A stretch of DNA of 64,000 nt. It comes from Fibrobacter succinogenes (GTDB lineage: Bacteria; Fibrobacterota; Fibrobacteria; Fibrobacterales; Fibrobacteraceae). This document shows positions 4,730 to 25,706 of this stretch, in pieces (within the stretch, counting starts at the first letter, position 1; each line of letters begins with the position of its first letter). The notes under the pieces are model-generated. The model worked only from the letters and a program-made list of their open reading frames with translations. It had not been told where the DNA came from and searched no databases. The stretch is from assembly GCF_902779965.1 (NCBI RefSeq), contig NZ_CACZDK010000011.1, positions 1-64,000 of the forward strand. The letters run 5' to 3'. A program made the position numbers and the translations under genes.

Positions 4730-5815
4730 ATGAATTTACGAAGCATCATTAAGACTACGCTCATAAGCGCCCTCCTCCTCGGAACAAGCGCTTTTGCCGA
4801 TTTCAAACCAGTCCGAATCGCACACTATACTGGTGTGTTGTGTAGTGCCCCGGTTCATGTCGCTTGGCTCAAAGGTTACTTTGACGAGGAATTCAAAAAG
4901 ATTGGTCAGAAATTCGAAATGGTTCCTGTTGATGCCGGAAAGAATTCTGTGAACGAGCTCATCGTCGCAGGCAAAGTCGATGCAGGGAACGACTTGCTCG
5001 CCACCGAACTTCAGCCCATTCAAAACGGGCTCCCCATCGTCTTTGTCACCGGTGTTCATACGGGTTGCACCAAGTATTACGTCACCAAGAAATCAACGAT
5101 TCAAAAGTTGGAAGACCTGAAGGGACGCAAAACCAAGGTAGGCGTTATCGGTTTATCCGATAGTTCCGTGATGTCGTTCAGACGCAAACTCCGCGATTTA
5201 GGTATCGTCGCAGACGGCCCGGAAGCGGATGTTGAATTCATCGTCTATGGCGCAAGCGACTTGCCGATTGCCCTTGAAAAAGGCGCTGTTGACATTATCG
5301 CCCTTCATGATCCAACCGCAGCAACCGCCGAAAAAGAATACGGCTTGCGCAAGTTGCTCGACACCGCAATCGATCCGAAATTTGCCGTAGAATACTGCTG
5401 CGTCGCATTCGTGACACTCAAGCTCTGGAAGGAAAATCCAGAAGGTGCCGCCGCTTACACGCGCGCAGTCGCTCGCGGATCCGCATTTGTGAACAGCAAT
5501 CCGCGTGAAGCCGCAAGACTCCAGCTCTCGAAGGATGTCGTTTCTGGCAGTGAAGAATTCAACGCCCAGCTGCTCGAAAGCTACGGACACATTCCGTCCC
5601 GCAAGGCCGCGCTCCGCACGTTCAATATCGTTGCTGCAGAGCTTCAAAAGACGGGAGTCTTGAAGAAAAAGCTGAACATCGAAAAGTTCGTCAAGAGCCA
5701 CTTTGCAGACTTCGAATCAAAGGGTATCAAAATTCCGGATGGCTACTCCTATGATAAGGCCACCGATAAATTCACAGAAAATTTCGAAGAGCCGAAATCA
5801 TTAGTGAAGAAATAA
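4730..5815 (+). CDS. ABC transporter periplasmic binding protein, NMT1/SsuA-like, paralogue 2
   Basis: This 361-residue paralogue of the preceding gene shares almost all motifs, including the signal peptide (LLGTSAFA), RIAHYTGVLCSAPVH, GVHTGCTKYYV and the EYCC pair. Differences concentrate at the C-terminus and at scattered surface positions, as expected for an older tandem duplication. The ATG follows AGGGA. It has its own promoter region and is probably co-transcribed with the second cysK 84 bp downstream. There are two binding proteins but only one permease and one ATPase in the cluster, so both probably feed the same transporter, perhaps with different ligands or affinities. Confidence 0.85.
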   Translation: MNLRSIIKTTLISALLLGTSAFADFKPVRIAHYTGVLCSAPVHVAWLKGYFDEEFKKIGQKFEMVPVDAGKNSVNELIVAGKVDAGNDLLATELQPIQNGLPIVFVTGVHTGCTKYYVTKKSTIQKLEDLKGRKTKVGVIGLSDSSVMSFRRKLRDLGIVADGPEADVEFIVYGASDLPIALEKGAVDIIALHDPTAATAEKEYGLRKLLDTAIDPKFAVEYCCVAFVTLKLWKENPEGAAAYTRAVARGSAFVNSNPREAARLQLSKDVVSGSEEFNAQLLESYGHIPSRKAALRTFNIVAAELQKTGVLKKKLNIEKFVKSHFADFESKGIKIPDGYSYDKATDKFTENFEEPKSLVKK

Positions 5816-5820
5816 ACATA

Positions 5821-5870
5821 GGCGCCCCCAGCATGGTTCGGTAGGCTCACCAACCTTAGGCGGGGTGACA
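5821..5870. repeat. Palindromic intergenic element between SBP2 and cysK2
   Basis: This stem-loop element has an inner stem GGTT(c)GGT (5835-5842) pairing with ACC AACC (5849-5855) and an outer C5 (5825-5829) facing G4 (5862-5865). It ends in GGGGTGAC, like other dispersed repeats in this window. On the plus strand it is followed by A, not T, so it is not a forward terminator. Confidence 0.5.
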
Positions 5871-5899
5871 AAAAAGTTTAACAGAAAAGAGAGGTAACA

Positions 5900-6886
5900 A
5901 TGTCCAATATTCACCATTCCATTACCGAGCTCGTCGGCCACACTCCGCTGCTGGAGCTCCACAATTTTGAGAAGAATCACAATGCCAAGGGCCATATCCT
6001 GGCAAAACTCGAATACTTCAACCCGTCCGGCTCCGTGAAGGACCGCGCTGCCCTCAGAATGATTGAAGAAGCCGAACGCGAAGGCAAGCTCAAGCCGGGT
6101 GGAGAAATCGTTGAAATCACAAGCGGTAACACGGGCATCGGCCTTGCCGCTATCGCCGCTGCCAAGGGCTACAAACTCACCGTTTTCTTTGAACCGGGTG
6201 GTTCTGAAGAACGCGTACAAGTGATCAAGACCTATGGAGCAACGCTCCTCGGTTACGACGCCCTTCCGAACGTAAGCAAGCTTCTGAAGGAAGGCTCCTT
6301 CTCTGTTGCCGTCTTGCTCTCCGACGTCCGCAAGTATGCCGAAGAACACAATGCATTCTTCATCAACCAGATTGAAAACGAAAACAACCCGCTCGCCCAT
6401 TACTACACCACCGGCCCGGAAATCGTTGCCGATACGGATGGCAAGGTAGACTTTATCGTTTCCATGGCAGGCACGGGCGGTACGCTCAATGGTCTTTCCA
6501 AGTACTTCCGCGAACACAATCCGAACGTGAAAATCGTCGGTGTGCAGGCCACTCCGGATTCTCGCTTCTTCACCCCGGAAGCTGAAGAACATGGCGTGAT
6601 CGATGGTGTTGCCCCGTTCGCAAACGTTCCGGAACCGCCTCCTCTGCTGAACGATTCTTCGATCTATGACGAATACATTGAAGTCTCTACGCTCCAGGCT
6701 ACAGGCGTTGCCCACGAACTCGCCGAAAAGGAAGGCCTCTTCCTCGGAACATCCGGTGCAGCAGGCATCTATGCCGCCTCCATCGTGGCTGCACGTCCTG
6801 AAAACGAAGGAAAGAACATTGTCGTTATTACAGCTGATAACGGATTCAAGTACCTTTCCACTAAGGTGTACGCATTGAAGAAGTAA
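5900..6886 (+). CDS. cysK: Cysteine synthase, paralogue 2
   Basis: This second 328-residue PLP-dependent O-acetylserine sulfhydrylase has the PLP lysine at K47 (SGSVKDR), TSGNTG and AGTGGTL. It matches paralogue 1 closely at both ends but differs at about residues 110-145, near the region that closes over the active site, so substrate preference may differ. The ATG follows AGAGAGG. Codon choice looks more biased toward C-ending codons than in paralogue 1, hinting at higher expression. It lies between a binding protein and the permease/ATPase, which ties cysteine synthesis to the imported sulfur source. Sulfocysteine-synthase (CysM-like) activity is possible. Confidence 0.93.
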   Translation: MSNIHHSITELVGHTPLLELHNFEKNHNAKGHILAKLEYFNPSGSVKDRAALRMIEEAEREGKLKPGGEIVEITSGNTGIGLAAIAAAKGYKLTVFFEPGGSEERVQVIKTYGATLLGYDALPNVSKLLKEGSFSVAVLLSDVRKYAEEHNAFFINQIENENNPLAHYYTTGPEIVADTDGKVDFIVSMAGTGGTLNGLSKYFREHNPNVKIVGVQATPDSRFFTPEAEEHGVIDGVAPFANVPEPPPLLNDSSIYDEYIEVSTLQATGVAHELAEKEGLFLGTSGAAGIYAASIVAARPENEGKNIVVITADNGFKYLSTKVYALKK

Positions 6887-20893: not shown

Positions 20894-22990
20894 TTAAAAC
20901 CCCTGTGTTAATGTTAATTTGTATTCTCGCCCCGGTGTCGGGAATGATATATAGGGATTTCTATAAGTTTCATCCGTCAAGTTCCTGAGCGCAAAAACAA
21001 GTCGAGTTTTTGAAAACGGCGTATAGCCCAACGCAAAGTGGTGCAAATCAACAGCAGGCTGTTTTATGCGATTTGCACGGTCATCAAAGATGTCGGTACG
21101 ATATTCCGAAGTCCATGTCAAATCGAGATGGAACGGCAAATCAAATCGAGCCTCCGCATAATACGAACGCGCAGGTTCATTCGGGAGTTGTTTGCCATAG
21201 TAATACTTTTCATCGCTACGATCTTCAGCATCTTGGAATGTCGCTCGTAAAACCACGGAAAGCCATTTTTTCGGCCTACTTTCGAGTTCCGCTTCAAGCC
21301 CACGAATATGCGCTTCTCCAACATTCTTCGGTTTTGAAATACCTGCACTCACCAACCAATAAATTCCATTATCCAAATCGGTTTCAAAATACGTTGCGCG
21401 AATTGCGGTATTGCTTTTGGGAATCATATAATAGCCACCGACTTCAAAACGCAACGCCGATTCATCCTTCAAATCAGGATTTGAGAGCATTCCTGGATAA
21501 ACACCATAAAGCTCCATCAATTGAGGCGTACGAACAAATCGTCCAAAACTCAAGTTGCCACCGAACCGAGAATTCGGTGCATCATAGCGCACAAAGCCTC
21601 GTCCAGACCACGAAACATTACGGTCTTTCGCTGTTTTCAGCACAACCGATGTCGTAGGCTGAACAAATTTTCCACCATGAATATCATCCTTGACAATTAA
21701 CGCCGAAGCTTCACCGCCTACAGAAAGGTTTCGAACAACATCATAAGAAACATCACCAGAGATATTCGTCGCAACACGCATCAAGTTCCATTTACTCGAC
21801 GACGTCCCCCGCTTTTCATAATAGGACGCATCCAAGGATAAACGCAAATTCGCTTCTAGCCGTTCTCCCAAATAACTGGCAACGATTTCAGGGGCGAGGC
21901 TATAACCCGCAGCACCATATTCCTGCATTCCAGACATCGTATAGCCCAGATGATCCAATGGATAATACGAATGCGAAGTCGCCTTTTCATACTTTCCCGT
22001 CAGCGAAAGTTCCAACCAAAGCCAACCGAGCAACTGCGGAAGTTCTGCACGATACGTCGTCTGTACAAACTCGCCCTTGTAGCCCGCCACAGACGTTTGG
22101 TCGTCATCGCGTCCTGGGTTACCGCCTTCAGAACGGCTAAAGTTAAAATTCAAAGTCGAAAACACACCATTCGCATGCAAGACGCGAACTTTGGCAAGCC
22201 CAGAATATTCCGTAAATTCAGCGTTCCTGCGCGTATCCGTAAAATCGTCATCGGGATTGTACGGCGTTCCGTTCTGGCTATCAAATTCGTAATCGTTATC
22301 GCTGTGCCGCGCCGACAAAGACGCACTCACCGAGGCGCTATCCGTCAAACGAGAGAGCAACTGCGTCGAAGCTTCCCACGTGTTGTGGCTACCATAACTC
22401 AAAAGCACACGACCCGACTTTTTCTCTTCAGGCTTGAGCACTGCTTCGGCAGGTTTCGAACCTTTCGTGATAAAGTTGATGGCTCCGCCAATGCCGCGAC
22501 CGCCAAATTTTGCAGGAACTCGATCCTTGTAGACTTCAATCTTTTCAATCTGATTCAAGTCAATCGTTCCAAAATCAACCGCACCACCCGACGCATCGTT
22601 CAACGGGATTCCGTCCATGCAAACGACAATGTTCTTTGCCGAAACTCCACGAATACTCACGGTCTGGAAGCTCCCGACACCGCCCTGACGCGTGTACTGC
22701 ACGCCCGGAAGCGAAGCCAAAACTTCAGCCGCAGAAAGGCCGCGACCTTCCCATGCCTCCGGCGTAATCTCGGCATAGCTCGAAGACGCCTGCAACGGCT
22801 TTACATTTTCTGACGCTGTTCCGAAAACAGACGACTCGCCTAAATCCTGAATAAACTCTTCGGAAAAACTAGAAACGCTCGCAAGCAGTACGGCCGCGCA
22901 CACGCGAACGCCAACACGACTGTAAATGCCTCCGCACACAGTCAAATACCTACGCAAATGCGTGGCTATGCAAAGCGATGTCTTTCGCAC
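20894..22990 (-). CDS. TonB-dependent outer-membrane receptor, BtuB-like
   Basis: This roughly 700-residue TonB-dependent receptor has an N-terminal signal region, a plug domain (about residues 65-175, with SAAEVLASLPGVQ and VSIRGVSAKNIVVCMDG) and a 22-strand barrel ending in TLTQGF. The cobalamin riboswitch immediately upstream indicates B12 or cobinamide as ligand. The start is uncertain. The GTG at 22990 gives a long, arginine-containing leader (43 residues before the likely cleavage after SSFS) and has no clear SD, as expected if the ribosome site is sequestered by the riboswitch. A GGAGG at about 22937 has no good start codon after it. Confidence 0.87.
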   Translation of the reverse strand: MRKTSLCIATHLRRYLTVCGGIYSRVGVRVCAAVLLASVSSFSEEFIQDLGESSVFGTASENVKPLQASSSYAEITPEAWEGRGLSAAEVLASLPGVQYTRQGGVGSFQTVSIRGVSAKNIVVCMDGIPLNDASGGAVDFGTIDLNQIEKIEVYKDRVPAKFGGRGIGGAINFITKGSKPAEAVLKPEEKKSGRVLLSYGSHNTWEASTQLLSRLTDSASVSASLSARHSDNDYEFDSQNGTPYNPDDDFTDTRRNAEFTEYSGLAKVRVLHANGVFSTLNFNFSRSEGGNPGRDDDQTSVAGYKGEFVQTTYRAELPQLLGWLWLELSLTGKYEKATSHSYYPLDHLGYTMSGMQEYGAAGYSLAPEIVASYLGERLEANLRLSLDASYYEKRGTSSSKWNLMRVATNISGDVSYDVVRNLSVGGEASALIVKDDIHGGKFVQPTTSVVLKTAKDRNVSWSGRGFVRYDAPNSRFGGNLSFGRFVRTPQLMELYGVYPGMLSNPDLKDESALRFEVGGYYMIPKSNTAIRATYFETDLDNGIYWLVSAGISKPKNVGEAHIRGLEAELESRPKKWLSVVLRATFQDAEDRSDEKYYYGKQLPNEPARSYYAEARFDLPFHLDLTWTSEYRTDIFDDRANRIKQPAVDLHHFALGYTPFSKTRLVFALRNLTDETYRNPYISFPTPGREYKLTLTQGF

Positions 22991-22994
22991 CGTT

Positions 22995-23225
22995 TAACAA
23001 CCCGTGGCGCAAAGCGCCCGTTGTGCCTTACAGTTCTTCTGACTCGGGGATCACTCTACTTCCAGCCCCTTCACACCCGCCTTTGCAAAACAGAATTTCC
23101 GACTTGCGACGAGCATTGGTTTACGCTAGTTTCGTCCTCCCTTACAGCGGCGAGACCGTTCCCGGCTTTCACGGGATTCTCTTATAAAGCTTTCTTCACG
23201 AAAGCCATACAGCGTTTTACCGCAT
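22995..23225 (-). ncRNA. Cobalamin (AdoCbl) riboswitch
   Basis: Read on the minus strand, GAATCCCGTGAAAGCCGGGA (23180-23161) and then CGGTCTCGCCGCTGTAA (about 23158-23142) are the conserved P3-P5 core of cobalamin riboswitches. GAGTCAGAAGAACTG followed by TAAGGC (23045-23025) is the B12 box. A hairpin GGGCGC-ttt-GCGCC (about 23003-23017), flanked by ACAAC/GTTGT, lies between the B12 box and the receptor start and probably forms the expression platform. The P1 boundaries are estimated. The riboswitch should shut off the receptor and propeller genes when B12 is plentiful. Confidence 0.88.
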
Positions 23226-23308
23226 AAGGCAATTACAACACAAAATATAGTAATAACGGCAAGGGTATGTAACAAATATTTTTCAATTCTACTTTACAAC
23301 TATTCTTT

Positions 23309-23330
23309 TATAATTTCTCGTAAACGAGGA
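23309..23330 (+). promoter_or_regulatory. Promoter -10 and hairpin-embedded SD of the radical SAM gene
   Basis: TATAAT lies at 23309-23314. The mini-hairpin CTCGT-aa-ACGAG (23317-23328) partly covers the SD GAGGA (23326-23330). No good -35 is visible. The cassette therefore has its own short leader, separate from the divergent B12 unit. Confidence 0.4.
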
Positions 23331-23334
23331 ATTT

Positions 23335-24456
23335 ATGAGAGTTTTATTAAGTTTAACCGAAAAATGCAATCTTAGATGTACCTATTGTTATTATAACGAA
23401 AGTCAGAACGAACGATGCGCCGATATGAGCGATGAGGTCAGAGAAGCAAGCCTCCGCTACATTTTAGATAAGACAATTGAGTTCAAACACGATTATTTGT
23501 CCATCACATTTTTCGGAGGAGAACCTCTCCTAAAGTTTGACGCCATACAAAAAAGTGTTTCCTTTCTCAAAAATCTCGTGCAAAGCCGTTTTTCCGAACT
23601 CCCCAAAGGTTTCGCATTGGTTTTCGCCATCAATACAAACGGCACCTTATTAAATGACGAAATTCTCGAATATTTCAAAAAAGAAAAATTCACAATATAT
23701 GTATCAATCGATGGTCCTGCATCACGGCACAATCTTTCAAGACGAACCGTAAACAACAAGGGGAGTTTCGATGCCTTAGCACCATTCATTCCAGAATTGG
23801 TCAAACAAGACGCTTTCGTGATTTCAGTCACCAACAGAAACAACATTAAGGGATTAACCGATTCCGTCAAGTGGCTTAAAGCGCAAGGTTTTAAAAACGT
23901 TCAAAATGCAGTTGACTTCGACGGGCGCTGGACTTCAGAAGACATGGATGCACTCGCAGCCGAGTACACCAAACTTGCAGAACTTTGGTACAATCTCAAA
24001 AAAGAGAAAAGTGATTTTTACATACAAACAATACAGGACCATATTCTGCTCCACGCTCTCGACCTAAAGGTAAAACATTGTTCTTGCGACATTCTCAAAG
24101 GATCCATCGGCATCGCAACGAATGGAAACGTATTCCCATGCAGCCGATTCATTTCCAGCAAGCCCAATGCCCCCTACTTACTTGGTAACGTTCTAGATAA
24201 AGAAGACCACATATACGATAGCCCTGCAGCTCAAGAAGTTTACAGGTTCCTCGAAACTGAAAAAAAGGAATGCATTGGATGCGCCATCCAACGTCGCTGC
24301 GCCGCACATGAATGCGGTTGCACCTCATTTTACACAACGGGAAGCCTATTCGGGGTTTCACCAGAAGTATGCACACACGAGCGCATCCTCAGTGCAATTT
24401 GCGATGAATTTGCCGTCAAACTTCAAAACGAAGGTAAGGCGGAAGACATCCTATAA
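23335..24456 (+). CDS. Radical SAM/SPASM peptide-modifying enzyme
   Basis: This 373-residue enzyme uses a [4Fe-4S] cluster and S-adenosylmethionine to generate a radical. The cluster motif is CNLRCTYC (C11, C15, C18). FFGGEPLL (about residues 59-66) is the SAM-binding GGE motif. The C-terminal SPASM domain has the full pattern: a Cys at about 247, GNVFPC, CIGCAIQRRC-x3-C (Cx2Cx5Cx3C) and a final Cys in PEVCTHE, enough for two auxiliary Fe-S clusters. SPASM enzymes of this size mature ribosomal peptides or activate sulfatases. A 74-residue peptide gene follows after 29 bp, which favours RiPP maturation. No RRE domain or sulfatase neighbour is visible. Confidence 0.88.
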   Translation: MRVLLSLTEKCNLRCTYCYYNESQNERCADMSDEVREASLRYILDKTIEFKHDYLSITFFGGEPLLKFDAIQKSVSFLKNLVQSRFSELPKGFALVFAINTNGTLLNDEILEYFKKEKFTIYVSIDGPASRHNLSRRTVNNKGSFDALAPFIPELVKQDAFVISVTNRNNIKGLTDSVKWLKAQGFKNVQNAVDFDGRWTSEDMDALAAEYTKLAELWYNLKKEKSDFYIQTIQDHILLHALDLKVKHCSCDILKGSIGIATNGNVFPCSRFISSKPNAPYLLGNVLDKEDHIYDSPAAQEVYRFLETEKKECIGCAIQRRCAAHECGCTSFYTTGSLFGVSPEVCTHERILSAICDEFAVKLQNEGKAEDIL

Positions 24457-24485
24457 ATTCAATCCACCTACAACAAGGAGAAATA

Positions 24486-24710
24486 ATGGATAAGAAAACA
24501 ATCAGCATCAATAAAGTCGCTGCCACAGCCGACTTGAAAAAACCGAATACAGACGGCATCCAAGGTCGCATCAAGCCGCTTGAAGGTGACATCGCTCCGG
24601 GTTATATCCCGAAAGGACCGAAGGAACCCATCGTACCGCCCAAAATTACAACAGGCGGCAAGACTCCGCTGAAAGATGCAATTAAGGACAAAGTCAATCT
24701 CAGAAAGTAA
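24486..24710 (+). CDS. Proline/lysine-rich small protein, candidate RiPP precursor
   Basis: This 74-residue protein follows a strong AAGGAG SD, 29 bp after the radical SAM gene. It has no cysteine, tryptophan, histidine or phenylalanine. The only aromatic residue is Y40 in PGYIPKGP. The centre (about residues 36-53) is rich in Pro and Lys, a double glycine occurs at G57-G58, and the C-terminal 16 residues are basic and helical-looking. The N-terminal third (DKKTISINKVAATADLKK) could be a leader. Size, position and lack of any known domain fit a substrate of the upstream enzyme. Y40 is the natural site for a cyclophane or ether crosslink if there is one. A small non-RiPP partner protein is the alternative. 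Confidence 0.65.
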   Translation: MDKKTISINKVAATADLKKPNTDGIQGRIKPLEGDIAPGYIPKGPKEPIVPPKITTGGKTPLKDAIKDKVNLRK

Positions 24711-24714
24711 TTCT

Positions 24715-25671
24715 TTACTTTTTCCATTCCGCGAGCACCATGCCCGCAACAATAGCCGCCGCGCCCGCAAGGGCGACGGCTGTTATTTTTTCGCCAAGCG
24801 CAATCACAGCCGTAATAATCGTCACAAGCGGAATCGCATAGATATAATTGCTCGCCAAAACCGTTCCAAGTTGCTTCAGTACCTTATTCCAGATGAGGTA
24901 TCCAAACATTGACGAGAACACCGTGAGGCAAAGAAAATTGAGCGACACGACAGGTTCCGCAAAGTTCTGCCACAGGACTCCGAGGAAAAGCCCTGCACCC
25001 GCTTCATTTGGAGCAAACGCCGTTTCGCCCAGCATAATGATTATTGACGAAAGCGCGCCATAGAAAAACATCTTTCGAGTTATAAACAACGTAGAATATT
25101 TTTCATTGAGAGGTCGTACAATCAACGAATAAATCGTCCACATGCAAGCCGAGCAGAACGCGAGCAAATCGCCCACCGGCGAAAGTTTTAGAATAAACTT
25201 TCCATTCAGCACCACAAGCACCATGCCAACAAACGTGACAAGGCACCCGATAATTTGCCGTTTGCAAAGACGTTCGCTCTTGTAAATAAGCCCGCCAAAA
25301 ATCATCGTCAAAAGCGGGTTCGTGCAGACAATCAGCGAAACATTGCTCGACGGCGAAATCGAGAGCGCCGTGTTCTCCGCCCAAAAGTAAAGCGTGCAAC
25401 CCGTCAGCCCGCACAAGCAAAGAATCAGTTCGTGCTTCCAGTTTTCACAACGGAATTTTTTATGCGTCATGGCGAGCAGCAGCAAGTACGTCACCGTAAA
25501 GCGCAACGTAAAAATCTGCACCGCCGAGAACCCGTGATTCAAAAGCACCTTCGTGCTCACAAAACTCGTGCCCCAAAATGCAATTGTTCCAATCGCAAGG
25601 ATATGCCAAAGTGCAAGACCACGCGAGGTGTTTGCTGTAGATTCAAAGGCTTTAATCGGAGCAGGTTTCAT
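24715..25671 (-). CDS. EamA/DMT-family membrane transporter
   Basis: This 318-residue drug/metabolite transporter has ten hydrophobic helices arranged as two EamA repeats. The first repeat contains FWGTSFVSTKVLL (about residues 32-44). The second repeat starts near residue 165 with GDLLAFCSACMWTIYSLI. The ATG at 25671 was preferred to the TTG at 25680. The gene converges on the candidate RiPP precursor, with stops 5 bp apart, and no terminator separates them. Many EamA proteins export amino acids or small metabolites, so export of a processed product is conceivable but not supported by gene direction. Confidence 0.85.
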   Translation of the reverse strand: MKPAPIKAFESTANTSRGLALWHILAIGTIAFWGTSFVSTKVLLNHGFSAVQIFTLRFTVTYLLLLAMTHKKFRCENWKHELILCLCGLTGCTLYFWAENTALSISPSSNVSLIVCTNPLLTMIFGGLIYKSERLCKRQIIGCLVTFVGMVLVVLNGKFILKLSPVGDLLAFCSACMWTIYSLIVRPLNEKYSTLFITRKMFFYGALSSIIIMLGETAFAPNEAGAGLFLGVLWQNFAEPVVSLNFLCLTVFSSMFGYLIWNKVLKQLGTVLASNYIYAIPLVTIITAVIALGEKITAVALAGAAAIVAGMVLAEWKK

Positions 25672-25706
25672 CGACCGCAAAGATAGTTTTTTATAAAGCC
25701 AGTAGT

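Follow-up and report, generated by a model that had tools for sequence, protein, structure and literature searches.

The window, by which we mean the whole 64,000-nucleotide stretch of a Fibrobacter succinogenes contig that was analyzed, contains a two-gene cassette on its forward strand. The first open reading frame (positions 23335 to 24456, +) is complete and encodes a radical SAM/SPASM enzyme of 373 amino acids, while the second (24486 to 24710, +) encodes a Pro/Lys-rich peptide of 74 amino acids. The genes are 29 bp apart, and a Shine-Dalgarno sequence, AAGGAG, was located ahead of the peptide gene at 24475 to 24480 (+) both by reading the sequence and by the script used to find partner genes, so that the arrangement described in an earlier sequence-only reading of this DNA was borne out. 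That reading had also assigned the enzyme gene its own −10 box. The hexamer TATAAT is present at 23309 to 23314 (+), but a promoter here is no more than plausible, since scanning for the sigma-70 consensus gave no full match at this position and the nearest relative, genome G014, has TATAGT in its place. A gene for a TonB-dependent, BtuB-like receptor (20894 to 22990) lies upstream and is divergent from the enzyme gene. It is preceded by a cobalamin riboswitch (RF00174, 74.8 bits) at 23012 to 23227 on the reverse strand, and the riboswitch lies in the intergenic region from which the radical SAM gene also starts. Downstream, a gene for an EamA-like (EamA-type) transporter (24715 to 25680) is convergent to the cassette, in agreement with the earlier remark that no exporter or protease gene follows in the same direction.

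The window enzyme matched PF04055 with 63.7 bits and PF13186 with 25.7 bits (cut-off, 21.5). The CX3CX2C radical SAM cluster motif, which here takes the form CNLRCTYC (C11, C15, and C18; 23365 to 23388, +), and the eight SPASM cysteines (24085 to 24372, +), arranged as C251-x12-G-x4-C269 ... C313x2C316x5C322x4C327xC329 ... C346, were invariant in all 81 family enzymes aligned. An AlphaFold2 model of the enzyme had a mean pLDDT of 91.5, and the nearest solved folds belonged to maturases of peptides or proteins, namely, a sactipeptide thioether maturase (PDB 5wgg; Z 36) and ChlB and anSME (Z 33 for both), followed by TigE (PDB 8vpo; Z 27). The chains of EpeE gave a Z of 15 against the 36 of the best maturase. 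The maturase of 5wgg and 5why, which we take to be CteB, and anSME (4k36 to 4k39) share the fold of the window enzyme over ~340 residues, although they are only 20 to 24% identical to it and act on other substrates, and the 453-amino-acid 5wgg chain carries ~95 additional N-terminal residues that are absent from the window enzyme. ChlB (PDB 9gm3 and 9gmc), a radical SAM enzyme of 372 to 375 residues that was solved with its precursor leader, is ~20% identical.

Among the 25 best NCBIfam families, the window enzyme reached the curated cut-off of none. The nearest model was that of the PapB family of radical SAM/SPASM ranthipeptide maturases (NF047865), which matched across the radical SAM and SPASM region with 198.4 bits against a cut-off of 340. 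PapB links Cys to Asp or Glu (PMC9413430), a chemistry that uses Cys, whereas the window peptide has none. The sequence-only reading had named clustering with sulfatase-activating enzymes as a ground for refutation; the score against the sulfatase maturase model TIGR03942 was far too low for membership, at 118.3 bits for a cut-off of 349.45. A PADLOC match of the enzyme to pVip was limited to the shared radical SAM domain.

A search of 80 genomes of the genus Fibrobacter (E < 1e-30) returned 112 matches, one gene being split in two, from 60 of the genomes, and a search of the Fibrobacteraceae added a few family members from other genera. When a profile was run against 151 genomes of the phylum, all 98 matches had E values of 2.4e-148 or better and no others appeared from there to the limit of 1e-60, so the family is sharply bounded. 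Beyond the phylum, coverage came from a pattern scan of public species genomes, in which close relatives occurred only in Fibrobacter together with two distant matches, and from a scan of viral contigs, which returned only distant SPASM relatives. As judged by these sequence searches, the enzyme family is found here only in Fibrobacteraceae. One of the two distant relatives, from Bacteroidales, has no comparable neighbor gene. The other, from Desulfobacteraceae (locus L051, 25% identity), is followed by a gene for a 107-amino-acid Cys-containing protein (5786 to 6109) and is surrounded by genes resembling those for heme proteins, which suggests quinohemoprotein maturation at that locus.

In a tree of 81 family enzymes, which are 44 to 93% identical to the window enzyme, the window enzyme fell in a clade of 6 members (clade 1; support, 100/100). 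Clade 2 comprised 28 members in two groups of 14, one of which grouped with clade 1, and the branching of these two groups was less well supported; the remaining 47 enzymes made up clades 3 to 5. All of the 81 enzymes examined had an adjacent partner gene, and the partners were of three types. The 34 enzymes of clades 1 and 2 were each followed, after a gap of 11 to 40 bp, by a small gene with a Shine-Dalgarno-like stretch that encodes a small and mostly basic protein (33 were found by the script, and that of genome G078 was found by reading the sequence). As a control, genes of at least 250 codons from the same loci were examined, and 5 of 223 had a comparable small gene downstream, or 3 of 221 after the removal of two edge copies of the family cassettes. 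The small basic partners of the sister clade are 96 to 183 amino acids long, and the one that was modeled was predicted to form two helices with modest confidence (pLDDT 71).

The enzymes of clades 3 to 5 had instead a Ser-rich lipoprotein-like protein encoded just upstream in 47 of 47 cases, the assignment having been made by eye from a Lys-rich N terminus, a hydrophobic stretch, and a Cys. The Bacteroidetes rSAM/lipoprotein system (TIGR04133 and TIGR04134) likewise pairs a lipoprotein with a neighboring radical SAM enzyme; the 25 families that scored best with the window enzyme did not include TIGR04133. A clade-3 partner lipoprotein matched no NCBIfam family, and a literature search on radical SAM lipoproteins or RiPPs of Fibrobacter found nothing relevant. 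At some loci (L133 on contig G097:C49, L067, and L069) Ser-rich lipoprotein genes occur in tandem copies with one or two enzymes, and many of the tandem lipoproteins have SMVTTFE or SMVSTYD at the C-terminal end, frequently with DDI after it, which may be a recognition tail.

The cassettes come and go, as seen at the interval between hemB and hemL. Several genomes have a clade-2 cassette between these two genes (L103, L104, L055, L105, L111, L056, L117, and L166 to L195), whereas in most genomes examined, including that of the window, hemB lies near hemL and no family enzyme was found between them. Four genomes have, directly after a clade-2 cassette, the EamA-like gene found next to the clade-1 cassette in the window, and in one of these (G084) a TonB receptor gene lies beyond it. 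The window's genome itself carries two further family cassettes, both of clade 2 and 6 kb apart on one contig (L053, listed under G000:C52, and L054, under G000:C1), as well as a fourth family enzyme with a lipoprotein partner.

The peptide gene in the window is a real gene that is co-inherited with the enzyme gene and is under purifying selection. A profile built from the six known clade-1 peptides and run on the 80 genus genomes found the peptide in 6 of them, exactly those that hold a clade-1 enzyme, with every copy adjacent to it, and in none of the 74 genomes lacking one; two other matches were weak (E ~0.07) and lay inside frames of >1300 codons. Peptide homologs without the enzyme, a case that the sequence-only reading had singled out, were therefore not found among these genomes. 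The clade-1 cassette occupies two genomic sites, beside the TonB receptor gene in the window and G014 and after a purF-like gene in G008, G018, G031, and G089, so the adjacency of enzyme and peptide is not due to shared surroundings alone. The peptides of the window and G014 are 77% identical, with a dN of 0.18 and a dS of 0.82 (dN/dS ~0.22), and the corresponding enzymes have a dN of 0.038 and a dS of 0.85. No fitting family for the peptide was found in NCBIfam, Pfam, PHROGs, or PADLOC, and neither an RRE nor another known domain was found in the clade-1 peptide with NCBIfam, Pfam, and PHROGs; the earlier reading, likewise, had not recognized it as any described RiPP precursor class.

As had been noted earlier, the window peptide contains no Cys, and Y40 is its only aromatic residue. 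The alignment of the six peptides provided the conserved positions that the sequence-only reading had asked for, namely, nine invariant columns (M1, K10, G34, P38, P48, P52, G57, G58, and K69). K10 falls in the N-terminal part (residues 1 to 30; 24486 to 24575, +), which may be a recognition, or leader, segment. The N termini of the clade-1 peptides and the lipoproteins are both Lys-rich and follow the pattern hydrophobic-x-[IV]-[EKNQ]-K (IKVEK and INIQK in the former, MKIEK and MNIQK in the latter), and this stretch is perhaps a common enzyme-binding segment. Y40, within PGYIPK, is present only in the window and G014 peptides, four of the six homologs have no F, W, or Y at all, and a single Cys occurs in three of the six at nonconserved positions. 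Thioether and Tyr chemistries are thus not common to the family, and the earlier exclusion of thioether bonds is supported by the lack of a conserved Cys.

The other invariant residues include those of a short glycine box, G-[GD]-x-[RTA]-[PAVH]-[LIVG], which occurs exactly twice in each of the six peptides (12 occurrences, compared with 0.12 in shuffled sequences); the pattern was written with the alignment already in view, and its P value therefore overstates the significance. In the window, box 1 is GDIAPG (residues 34 to 39; 24585 to 24602, +), in which G34 and P38 are invariant, and box 2 is GGKTPL (residues 57 to 62; 24654 to 24671, +), in which G57 and G58 are invariant. The Gly-Gly pair at 57-58, which had been proposed as a processing site, is rather part of the second copy of the duplicated box and was rejected as a leader cleavage site. 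Independently of this pattern, the G008 peptide contains an exact 10-residue repeat, NSPIGGKTPV, its best 8-residue self-match having a P value of 0.003; the window peptide has no outstanding self-match.

Glycine-centered motifs were also found in the other partner classes. In 12 diverged partners of clade 2, a single column is invariant; it holds a Gly, after which [IYL]-[PI] is the usual continuation. In the other clade-2 group, 11 of 12 partners retain a Gly. The pattern G-hydrophobic-[PIV] occurred 42 times in the lipoproteins (13.7 in shuffled sequences) and 21 times in the clade-2 partners (5.1 in shuffled sequences), where it was present in 14 of 18 sequences, a number that random natural segments reached with a P of 0.0024. 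It showed no clear enrichment in the clade-1 peptides (5 compared with 3.2) and was 1.2-fold enriched in natural proteins of the same loci. These regular expressions, too, were picked with the sequences already known. A weight matrix trained on the lipoproteins alone recognized the clade-2 partners (P 6e-5 against shuffles) but not the clade-1 peptides (combined P 0.10), and a single motif for all three partner classes is therefore retained as a lead only. Its best match in the window peptide was PLEGDIAP, which is box 1. The partner in G078, which was outside the set that defined the motif, contains TAGDV and TAGIPV. A Gly-anchored target appears likely for clades 2 to 5 and plausible for clade 1, and the idea of a common target rests mainly on the former because the motif was not significantly enriched in the window's own clade.

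We consider it rather probable that the enzyme of the cassette is a SPASM radical SAM maturase and that the peptide is its dedicated substrate. Acting in the cytosol, the enzyme would bind the peptide by its conserved N-terminal part, generate a 5'-deoxyadenosyl radical, and abstract a hydrogen atom from a residue in or beside each Gly box, so that the change, made once per box, would fall on an aliphatic residue or on the backbone carbon beside Gly. Such a modification would need neither a thiol nor an aromatic ring and would most plausibly be an epimerization, the formation of a cyclopropane, or an aliphatic C-C link. We propose that it is anchored at glycine because Gly-hydrophobic-[Pro/Ile/Val] is enriched in the other partner classes, and this motif is probably what enzymes of the same type modify in the sister clades, in small basic proteins and, before export, in Ser-rich lipoproteins. 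A possible precedent is TvgB, which converts the Val of a repeated TVGG motif to cyclopropylglycine (PMC9062424), a reaction that joins the two gamma-carbons of Val, and whose target, like the one proposed here, is an aliphatic residue beside Gly. The TVGG repeat is absent from clade-1 peptides, which have the glycine boxes given above, and in clades 2 to 5 the hydrophobic residue comes after the Gly, unlike in TvgB. By analogy, TvgB may serve as a precedent for a Gly-flanked aliphatic repeat, with epimerization equally open.

The precursor role of the peptide is thus read from its sequence and context, and its status as a RiPP is unproven. The RiPP-like cassette of the sequence-only reading stands insofar as the partner is dedicated and co-inherited (adjacent in six of six cases) and falls short in that no exporter or protease is linked to it: when the neighbors at both clade-1 sites were read, no gene for an RRE-type binding domain, an exporter, or a protease was found near the cassettes. 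RiPP cassettes usually, though not obligatorily, include an exporter or a leader peptidase. The lack of a linked exporter or protease, together with sister enzymes that sit beside basic proteins or Ser-rich lipoproteins, leaves RiPP status unproven, and with the lipoprotein partners in particular it argues against a secreted antibiotic. A plain secreted antimicrobial or signaling RiPP, in which one Gly box would be a protease site, would be in keeping with the accessory nature of the cassettes (empty sites in relatives were seen for clade 2) and with the scarcity of clade 1. We nevertheless regard it as unlikely, since apart from the convergent EamA-like gene no peptidase, transporter, or immunity gene was recognized at either clade-1 site, and because the two boxes are alike a single cleavage at the Gly-Gly pair fits badly.

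The small proteins might also be accessory factors, substrate chaperones like PqqD for PqqE, with the true substrate encoded elsewhere. The helices predicted for a clade-2 partner, the Lys/Ala-rich composition of clade-2 partners, and the lack of a linked gene for leader cleavage or export would suit such a role, for which there is a precedent in graspetide loci, which are reported to encode, immediately ahead of SPASM enzymes, small proteins regarded as PqqD-like (PMC8939145). The clade-1 peptide, however, lacks an RRE or known domain and is substrate-like in being Pro/Gly-rich with a duplicated short box, and the partner classes share little beyond Gly-centered motifs while the enzymes remain 44 to 93% identical to that of the window, a pattern that fits substrates rather than a shared chaperone; we judge this alternative improbable. 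Far less credence is given to an enzyme like the sulfatase maturases that would oxidize a residue of a distant protein, with the small gene as a passenger. The fold is close to that of anSME, also by Foldseek, yet the score against the sulfatase maturase model is low, the SPASM spacing is Cx4CxC, and peptide and enzyme are strictly co-inherited. Equally slight is the chance of a cross-link centered on Y40, a cyclophane or an aryl-alkyl link, which the sequence-only reading had listed, together with epimerization and Lys modification, once thioethers were set aside. It would draw on the PGYIPK of the window and its closest relative, but it was rejected as Y40 is not conserved and most of the homologs have no aromatic residue, and when scored against the models for the cyclophane maturases YhhB, GrrM/OscB, AmcB, and FxsB, the enzyme stayed below every cut-off. 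What persists of the earlier cassette reading is a SPASM enzyme with a dedicated small partner of no known family, without the tyrosine chemistry and the Gly-Gly processing site.

The system formed by the maturase and its proposed substrate would be of a known kind, a SPASM maturase with a dedicated substrate, restricted to one family, and we found no description of it. We suggest more tentatively, as a possibility that falls somewhat short of probable, that in most species of Fibrobacter a Fibrobacteraceae-specific enzyme family installs one kind of modification, anchored at glycine and involving neither a thioether nor an aromatic residue, on proteins of three unrelated sorts (peptides with duplicated Gly boxes, Ser-rich lipoproteins, and small basic proteins that are helical), and that this may be a general modification of the envelope and of small proteins rather than a secreted natural product. 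Most characterized SPASM maturases act on Cys or aromatic residues. In Fibrobacter, a genus known for rumen cellulose degradation, 60 of 80 genomes hold members of this compact family, whose partners conserve neither but, in all three types, keep Gly-centered motifs. Provided that the pairing is functional, a peptide modification that may be new could be tested in a small system of two genes, and the pairing would suggest that much of the radical SAM chemistry of this family in Fibrobacter is directed at lipoproteins and not at exported antibiotics.
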